Part shown: positions 49,407 to 51,201 of the stretch, piece after piece
Layout: each line of letters opens with the position of its first letter
How positions within the stretch are numbered: position 1 is the stretch's first letter
DNA from: Candidatus Planktophila sp.
GTDB taxonomy: Bacteria; Actinomycetota; Actinomycetes; Nanopelagicales; Nanopelagicaceae
Reading direction: 5' to 3'
Length of the DNA stretch: 64,000 nt
Assembly: GCA_030649935.1 (NCBI GenBank)
Contig: JAUSFN010000001.1
Location: forward strand, 1-64,000
Notes under the pieces: generated by a model
Database searches by the model: none
The model's input: only the letters and a program-made list of their open reading frames with translations
Told to the model about the DNA's origin: nothing
Position numbers and translations under genes: made by a program

Positions 49407-49774
49407 GGGGGTGAACGGTCTCGACTTTGGATGTTGAGGCAGGGGAAGCGGGCCGAGGAAGCCGGAATGATCTCGTAAACCAATAATCCGTGCAAAAAAT
49501 AACTGCTGACACTAATCAGCAAGCTTTCACACTCGCTGCATAAGCTAGTTTGAAGCCGTTAGCCCAGATGCCGCTCTCGGTCTGGAATCTAGCGTCGATA
49601 GAGGGCTTTTCATTGCATAGGTGTTACGAACTATGTGAGAGAACAGTTTCGTAACTGAGTTCGTCGAAGAGTTGTGTGGCAAAACTTCGGGACTGAGAAA
49701 GCGCTAATCACACTACGCCCGTAGAAGCCCTGTTTTTGCACCGAAGGACCCGGGTTCGATTCCCGGCACCTCCA
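49407..49774 (+). ncRNA. ssrA: Transfer-messenger RNA (tmRNA)
   Basis: The 5' GGGGGTG pairs with CACCTCC near the 3' end, and the T-arm GGACCCGGGTTCGATTCCC precedes it. The discriminator is A774; CCA is not encoded. The tag frame begins at GCT (49505) and reads ADTNQQAFTLAA before TAA at 49541-49543, close to the mycobacterial ADSxQRDYALAA tag. The 368-base length is normal, and smpB is nearby. Coordinates are set from the acceptor stem. Confidence 0.94.
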
Positions 49775-49784
49775 CAACGGGGGG

Positions 49785-49818
49785 CTAGTGGAATTCCAGG
49801 AAATACCTAGTGGAATTC
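49785..49818 (+). repeat. Repeat of part of the left inverted repeat
   Basis: CTAGTGGAATTC at 49785-49796 recurs at 49807-49818. The left end of the element therefore carries its end sequence twice in the same orientation. Confidence 0.8.
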
Positions 49819-49844
49819 ATAGCTCCTTGATTGCTTTTTAACAT

Positions 49845-49889
49845 AAAAACCCCGTACTTTCCATCAATTGGATAGTCCGGGGTTTTTTT
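49845..49889 (+). terminator. Rho-independent terminator downstream of ssrA
   Basis: AAAAACCCCGTACTTTCC, loop ATCAATT, GGATAGTCCGGGGTTTTTTT forms a long imperfect stem with a T tract. It would stop transcripts leaving ssrA and lies inside the inverted-repeat element, so the ancestral ssrA terminator may differ. About 200 further bases before the transporter gene contain nothing I can name. Confidence 0.85.
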
Positions 49890-50094
49890 ACATTGCACGC
49901 AAGTTGGGAGTTTTTGGAAGCAGCAGCACTCTCATTCCCACTTATTGCTCGATAGTGGGTTTACACTGCCATGCATGTCCCTAATGCAGCAAAGGCGAAC
50001 TCGTTTGCCTGGTTATTCTTGTTGCGATTGCGAACACTAACTCACTCCGCTCTTCGTTAAGCCAATCAATTCCCACTCTTTCGGAGGAGTTCAC

Positions 50095-50994
50095 ATGTCC
50101 AAAAATTTTAGGGTTAATTCTTATCTGACATTAGCAATGTTGTTTTGGGGTCTCGGAACGGTTCTCACGAAATCCGCCTTGAATAACTTTGATTCTTTGA
50201 CCCTGCTTCCAATCCAATTAGCGTCCAGCTCAATATTTCTAGGCCTATTGCTTTTTTTCTTACGTGAAAAAGAGTTGTCGGTCTCATCTCGTGGATCTTA
50301 TTTAAAACTTGCTCTTTTGGGAGTTTTAAACCCGGGGATTGCGTATGCGTTGGGTTTGAGTGGACTGGCGCAGATACCAGCATCCATCTCGGTAGTCATC
50401 TGGGCAACGGAGCCGTTATTGATTACGGTTTTGGCCTACTTATTCATTCGAGGAACGGTGAAGCGAGAAACCATCCTCGCAATATTTCTGGCTACCTCTG
50501 GCGTTTTATTGATAATAGGAAAACCGTCAGGTCAAAGCGAAATCTTTGGAATCCTCTTAACGTTTTTATCGGTTGGGGCATGTGCCGGATATTCGATACT
50601 TCTGAGTCTCATGAAACTTAAAGATGGCTCTCTCTTTATCGTTTTCATCCAACAATTGATTGCATTGATATTTGCGCTATTTCTCATGTTTGTGAAGTTT
50701 GTACATAGCGGCTTGCCTCCTATGAACATTTCTGAGTGGAGAATATTCGAAGCCGCAGTAGCAGGCATTGCTTACTACGGAATCGCTTTCTGGCTATATG
50801 TTTCTGGACTTCGCAGGACTTCTGCATTGAAGGCAGGAACGTTTCTTACATTGATTCCCGTCTTTGGACTATTTTTCAGCGTTCTACTTTTGAAGGAGCA
50901 CATTAATCAACGTCAAATTCTCGGATCCTTGATTGTCATTGCGGCAGTGGTTTCATTGTCGCTTTATGAGCGACGCGGTCGCACTTCCGACTGA
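50095..50994 (+). CDS. EamA/DMT-family transporter
   Basis: A ten-helix drug/metabolite transporter of 299 residues made of two EamA repeats (NSYLTLAMLFWGLGTVLTKSAL, and FGILLTFLSVGACAGYSILL). The substrate is not predictable. GGAGGAG precedes the ATG by six bases, a stronger ribosome site than most genes here. It is the only gene inside the inverted-repeat element at the ssrA 3' end, which suggests cargo. Confidence 0.88.
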   Translation: MSKNFRVNSYLTLAMLFWGLGTVLTKSALNNFDSLTLLPIQLASSSIFLGLLLFFLREKELSVSSRGSYLKLALLGVLNPGIAYALGLSGLAQIPASISVVIWATEPLLITVLAYLFIRGTVKRETILAIFLATSGVLLIIGKPSGQSEIFGILLTFLSVGACAGYSILLSLMKLKDGSLFIVFIQQLIALIFALFLMFVKFVHSGLPPMNISEWRIFEAAVAGIAYYGIAFWLYVSGLRRTSALKAGTFLTLIPVFGLFFSVLLLKEHINQRQILGSLIVIAAVVSLSLYERRGRTSD

Positions 50995-51190
50995 CATGGC
51001 GACACTTCTCTAGTTGTGTGAAATATTGGGAATTTCCCTGTGATTAGGGTTCTAATCAATACACAATAAGAGCCCGATTTACGGCTAAATATCGATTTCC
51101 ACTAGCCCCCCACAACGAACGAAGCAATTGAAAGTACTCGCATTTTCAAATAGTCGCGCGAGGCGCAGTGGATCAGCGTCTTGGCACAAA

Positions 51191-51201
51191 ACCTCCACAA
51201 C
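51191..51201 (+). repeat. Copy of the tmRNA 3' end sequence
   Basis: ACCTCCACAAC at 51191-51201 repeats the bases at the tmRNA 3' end and just beyond it (49768-49778). It could be the remnant of an attachment site from an element that integrated at ssrA. The surrounding 50995-51262 gap has no gene. Confidence 0.5.

Follow-up and report, generated by a model that had tools for sequence, protein, structure and literature searches.

A recombinase-less one-gene cassette inserted at the 3′ end of ssrA in a freshwater actinobacterium

The tmRNA gene (ssrA) of Candidatus Planktophila sp. is followed by a real insertion: a 1.33-kb cassette that is bounded by perfect inverted repeats, carries a single transporter gene and contains no recombinase. 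Relatives preserve the empty site, and in another genus the right end of the cassette is found again behind ssrA, at the identical base but bounding different cargo. With moderate confidence, we regard the cassette as a non-autonomous integrative element that uses the 3′ end of ssrA as its docking site and is moved in trans by a site-specific recombinase, most likely a tyrosine recombinase. The analysis covers a 64,000-nt stretch of DNA (hereafter the window) from a 1.82-Mb draft genome of 42 contigs, belonging to a family with small genomes; genome size and gene order suggest the freshwater acI/Nanopelagicaceae group.

Anatomy of the cassette and its cargo

At this locus, ftsX, smpB and ssrA are followed by the cassette and then by an MFS transporter gene on the opposite strand. 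The features are as follows (window coordinates):

49407–49775, + strand: tmRNA gene ssrA, intact, the putative docking site (ARAGORN; Rfam RF00023, 152.9 bits, extending to 49777)
49773–49779, + strand: left direct repeat copy CACAACG (7 bp), overlapping the last ssrA bases; the inner ACAAC is the repeat under a 5-bp reading
49780–49793, + strand: left end GGGGGCTAGTGGAA, from sequence and repeat search
49807–49818, + strand: second copy of CTAGTGGAATTC, from repeat search
49845–49887, + strand: GC-rich hairpin followed by a T run, terminator-like, inside the element (inverted repeat and sequence)
50095–50994, + strand: EamA/DMT-family transporter gene, 299 aa, the sole cargo (Pfam PF00892, E 9e-37)
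51016–51110, − strand: right end region, resembling the right boundary of an ssrA island in genomes G288 and G630
51097–51110, − strand: right end TTCCACTAGCCCCC, identical to the left end in inverted orientation (sequence and repeat search)
51111–51117, + strand: right direct repeat copy CACAACG; the empty site of genome G010 has a single copy

A preliminary description of this DNA had placed exact 14-bp inverted ends at 49780–51110 with CACAACG on both sides, the left copy beginning just inside the tmRNA; both points hold, as CACAACG starts at 49773 and ssrA runs to 49775 (ARAGORN) or 49777 (Rfam). The tmRNA is kept whole, the cassette starts at 49780, and 3–5 bases of the C(CACAACG) found at the far end of the cassette belong to the tmRNA. 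The terminal inverted repeats are perfect over 14 bp and 94% identical over 18 bp, and the longer right-end sequence reads GGGGGCTAGTGGAAATCGAT. When 200 first-order Markov-simulated windows were scanned for inverted repeats that directly abut direct repeats, none scored above 19; the cassette scores 21 (14+7), and the pattern thus exceeds chance. The 7-bp duplication described earlier is present, but its length is ambiguous because the outer C and G of the repeat also pair with the ends: ends of 14 bp leave a 7-bp repeat, ends of 15 bp a 5-bp one (ACAAC), and the maximum is 8 bp (CCACAACG). Both border readings are symmetric, and 5 and 7 bp are equally possible from the sequence.

Two further features lie just inside the left end. 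The second copy of CTAGTGGAATTC, positioned 22 bp inward of the left-end copy at 49785–49796, is possibly an extra recombinase binding site. The hairpin at 49845–49887, which points in the direction of ssrA and went unreported by a simple terminator scan, would act as a terminator.

Gene calls and a domain search revealed no recombinase or transposase gene within the cassette, in agreement with the initial view that EamA is its only cargo. At E ≤ 1e-30, relatives of this EamA protein occur in one of 296 family genomes, namely G622 of genus g25; this 64% identical homologue resides in an ordinary gene context without cassette ends, and weak similarity reaches into the leader. The cargo therefore probably came from the DNA of a g25-like organism or arrived along with such DNA. 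Degenerate patterns detected no EamA relatives in viral contigs or genome contigs, and the plasmid matches are distant DMT transporters.

Empty sites and a second insertion at the same base

Evidence for insertion comes from three relatives. A genome of the same genus (G010) lacks EamA and carries ACCTCCACAACG once. Its empty-site region reads ACCTCCACAACGATCGAGGCAATTG, that is, a single CACAACG followed by the sequence found beyond the cassette in the window (84% identity over 92 bp). The empty site had been predicted as ACCTCCACAACGAACG, and the corresponding G010 sequence is ACCTCCACAACGATCG; the proposal of a non-autonomous passenger element is borne out to the extent that the element is inserted and lacks a recombinase. 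The cassette and the ~90-bp unit behind it in the window are both missing from two other genomes (G581 and G352), whose ssrA 3′ ends are 99% identical to that of the window and which have the same MFS gene directly downstream.

The ~90-bp unit (window 51107–51198) terminates with AACCTCCAC, which repeats the 3′ end of ssrA, and follows ssrA at 13 of 80 distinct ssrA sites. It was seen only at ssrA among the genomes searched, sometimes in tandem, and it contains two hairpins with compensatory changes in 7 of 16 pairs (loci L013, L014, L020, L023, L035, L036, L205, L244, L249, L269 and L270).

Among the 296 family genomes, the right end of the cassette was found elsewhere only in G288 and G630, both of genus g25. 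The match spans 46 bp at 87% identity (E 4e-10 per genome) and continues more weakly to ~95 bp, a length over which the gapped alignment scores 98 versus 28 ± 5 for shuffles. Moreover, an exact 20-mer of the right end has two matches only among ~85,000 species genomes, again G288 and G630. In both, the match lies downstream of ssrA in the same orientation as in the window, at a distance of 2.8 kb (G288) or 4.2 kb (G630). The right boundary of this island reads ...CTAGCCCCC/CACTCA (the slash marks the boundary), and the junction CCCCC/CAC falls at the same base in the window, G288 and G630. The cargo differs, comprising in the island a TetR-type regulator and collagen-like/Lcl-like proteins, with no recombinase. 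On the ssrA side, the boundaries are CACCTC/CACTCAAGTG in G288 and CACCTC/CACTCTAGTG in G630; therefore, the repeat starts at the base where CACAACG starts in the window. The ssrA-side end carries a CACTCA repeat, and in its inner sequence part of the right end recurs in inverted form (TTCAGGCGTTAATC vs TTCAGGCGTAAATC). This 14-bp partial inverted repeat is not significant in a whole-locus scan, where similar chance matches are frequent, and it was counted only for its position beside both boundaries. The left G run is missing here and would, most simply, have been lost by a short deletion. The ssrA-side end is eroded in these genomes, and the left end is poorly conserved whereas the right end is conserved. 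As G288 and G630 are sister genomes, they were counted as one further insertion, bringing the number of independent insertions to two.

The G630 island is ~1.4 kb longer than that of its sister (L133 5493–6893 vs L136 around 4954). With the extra sequence, a 548-aa Lcl/DUF1566-like protein is complete in G630, whereas G288 encodes a truncated version, and the junction of the length difference displays an ~8-bp overlap, as a short-repeat deletion would give.

Search for a helper and competing explanations

Searches for the machinery that could move the cassette covered its own genome, its family and mobile DNA. The exact 14-mer end occurs in its own genome only as this pair, two-mismatch matches there are at control level, and across 394 genomes of the class the exact 14-mer is a rare sequence. 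Neither the own genome nor the 296 family genomes yielded a second pair of ends, and among one-mismatch copies in those 296 genomes, similarity extended beyond the 14-mer only in G288 and G630. It had been proposed to look for the ends near transposases in other genomes; the own genome and the 296 available family genomes gave no such partner and no transposase-bearing IS with matching ends. Likewise, searches of the family brought up no intact island with these ends that could be the parent. A search by tblastn with the two non-Xer integrases of the own genome, complemented by a motif scan, recognised no integrases in the ~20 kb around ssrA of the relatives examined. The own genome encodes XerC and XerD as well as two further integrases, one beside tRNA-Arg and one on a contig with phage-like genes, and G288 and G630 have Xer-type proteins and integrase fragments only; none has a known link to the cassette. 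Tn3-family transposases are absent from all 291 family genomes searched for them, and the best alignment of the cassette end to a Tn3 end was matched by 7% of shuffles and is not significant. Phage and plasmid DNA searched with the cassette ends returned nothing meaningful.

Several observations from these searches stand on their own. The 14-mer is present in 59 viral contigs; these, like the viral contigs with the palindromic core, were rejected as chance matches and terminator-like hairpins. A CTAGCCCCC-N5-GGGGGCTAG hairpin beside a conserved ACGTTGTAA/TTACAACGT motif is common to many viral contigs and is probably a terminator of one viral group (loci L273, L275–L285, L287–L289 and L291). 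In the own genome, a 405-aa tyrosine integrase is encoded just downstream of tRNA-Arg(ACG) (C35:22000-33000, L265), suggesting a tRNA-Arg genomic island. In addition, a 16-kb contig (C4:1-13000, L266) encodes a 381-aa integrase together with HNH-like and replication/primase-like proteins and is a possible prophage, satellite or plasmid.

The strongest competitor is a mobile insertion cassette of the DDE type, in which a passenger gene lies between the inverted repeats of an IS or transposon and is transposed in trans, with 5 or 7 bp of the target duplicated; in that case ssrA would be a preferred target or a coincidence. We consider this a plausible but rather less than probable account. Perfect short terminal repeats, a flush duplication, one gene with its own leader and no transposase match the published anatomy of such cassettes (PMC3913671), the G010 empty site demonstrates the duplicated target, and ends starting with GGGGGG beside a 5-bp duplication are a possible reading. 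Like MIC231 and mic-qnrD, the element holds one passenger gene between short inverted repeats. However, neither an autonomous copy or IS with matching ends nor a second end pair exists in the genomes searched, and both known insertions occupy the same base in the same orientation. The ends also begin with GGGG, and the 5-bp reading of the duplication is compatible with Tn3-derived non-autonomous elements (TIMEs; PMC4133298); in contrast to these, the cassette has repeats of 14–15 bp (18 bp at 94%) rather than ~38 bp and a fixed site, and the absence of Tn3 transposases from the 291 genomes and of significant end similarity weighs against this relationship. The earlier proposal of a DNA transposon with target duplication is one of two readings: the duplication stands by comparison with the empty site, while the same-base insertion in G288 and G630 favors site-specific integration.

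An unlikely possibility is that a larger genomic island once sat in ssrA and that internal deletion removed its integrase and most of its cargo, the cassette being what is left: the attachment ends and EamA. Islands commonly use the tmRNA gene as a site (PMC4383910), G288 and G630 have longer islands that share the right end, and another insertion-like unit lies behind ssrA. The locus resembles Islander-type tRNA/tmRNA islands in its ssrA 3′-end target, its direct repeat including the last bases of the gene, the intact target gene, the relatives with an empty site and the recurrent use of the site in two independent events. It differs in its 1.3-kb size, single gene, missing integrase, perfect terminal inverted repeats and, apparently, a repeat of only 7–8 bp where islands contain a displaced gene fragment. 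The lack of an intact parent island among the family genomes searched argues against a remnant, which would require integrase loss in two separate lineages. Tycheposons likewise place cargo beside tDNA in small-genome aquatic bacteria; those of genome-streamlined plankton span 4–200 kb and carry a tyrosine recombinase (PMC10872708), and the cassette has neither the size nor the enzyme.

That EamA is an invertible (phase-variable) gene, flipped by recombination between the 14-bp inverted ends, was suggested at the outset and is now very improbable: a single gene flanked by perfect inverted repeats would suit such a switch, but an empty site exists, the 7-bp sequences at its borders repeat in direct orientation, the adjoining DNA has no invertase gene and no relative contains the flipped form. 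As these classes are defined, the cassette does not fit a Tn3-derived element, an invertible cassette or a tycheposon. An assembly artefact or chance repeat, conceivable in a draft of 42 contigs, is scarcely credible given the simulations, flanks that continue as in relatives and the independent recurrence of the right end.

Proposed site-specific integration in trans

We favor site-specific integration over a transposon that chooses its sites freely because two independent insertions share one base and one orientation. It is preferred over the DDE-type mobile insertion cassette for the same-base insertions, the att-like layout of the arms and the status of tmRNA as a classical integrase target. 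Such layouts are known from tyrosine recombinases: the ICEBs1 site has 5-bp arms and a 7-bp spacer (PMC3715440), the lambda att overlap measures 7 bp (PMC8371274), and tmRNA genes are standard targets of integrases as well as islands (PMC4383910).

If mobile at present, as we infer, the cassette would be excised as a circle joining its ends as TTCCACTAGCCCCC-CACAACG-GGGGGCTAGTGGAA, in which 14-bp arms surround a putative 7-bp overlap. A recombinase supplied in trans, presumably of the tyrosine type, would then recombine the circle with CACAACG at the end of ssrA, yielding ssrA-CACAACG-element-CACAACG and leaving the tmRNA intact. The asymmetry of the ends, with a conserved right and a poorly conserved left, can be likened to attP arms, which are often asymmetric. 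Several points count against site-specific integration: the predicted attB has little arm symmetry, no recombinase lies in the cassette and none was recognised near ssrA in the relatives examined, G288 and G630 have only Xer-type and fragmentary integrases, the independent insertions number only two, the ssrA-side end in G288 and G630 is eroded, and a 5-bp duplication is equally possible.

The cassette would behave as a recombinase-dependent hitchhiker, and we assign it to no named family. More speculatively, and with considerable doubt, it may represent a family of recombinase-less cassettes with one or a few genes and loxP-like palindromic ends, for which the ssrA 3′ end serves as a dedicated dock across genera of freshwater actinobacteria while the recombinase travels separately on a phage, on a plasmid or as a host Xer protein. 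The locus yields a defined attB/attP prediction. Streamlined freshwater actinobacteria still differ in their transporters, and a one-gene cassette entering a fixed, harmless site without an enzyme of its own would be a simple route to such differences.
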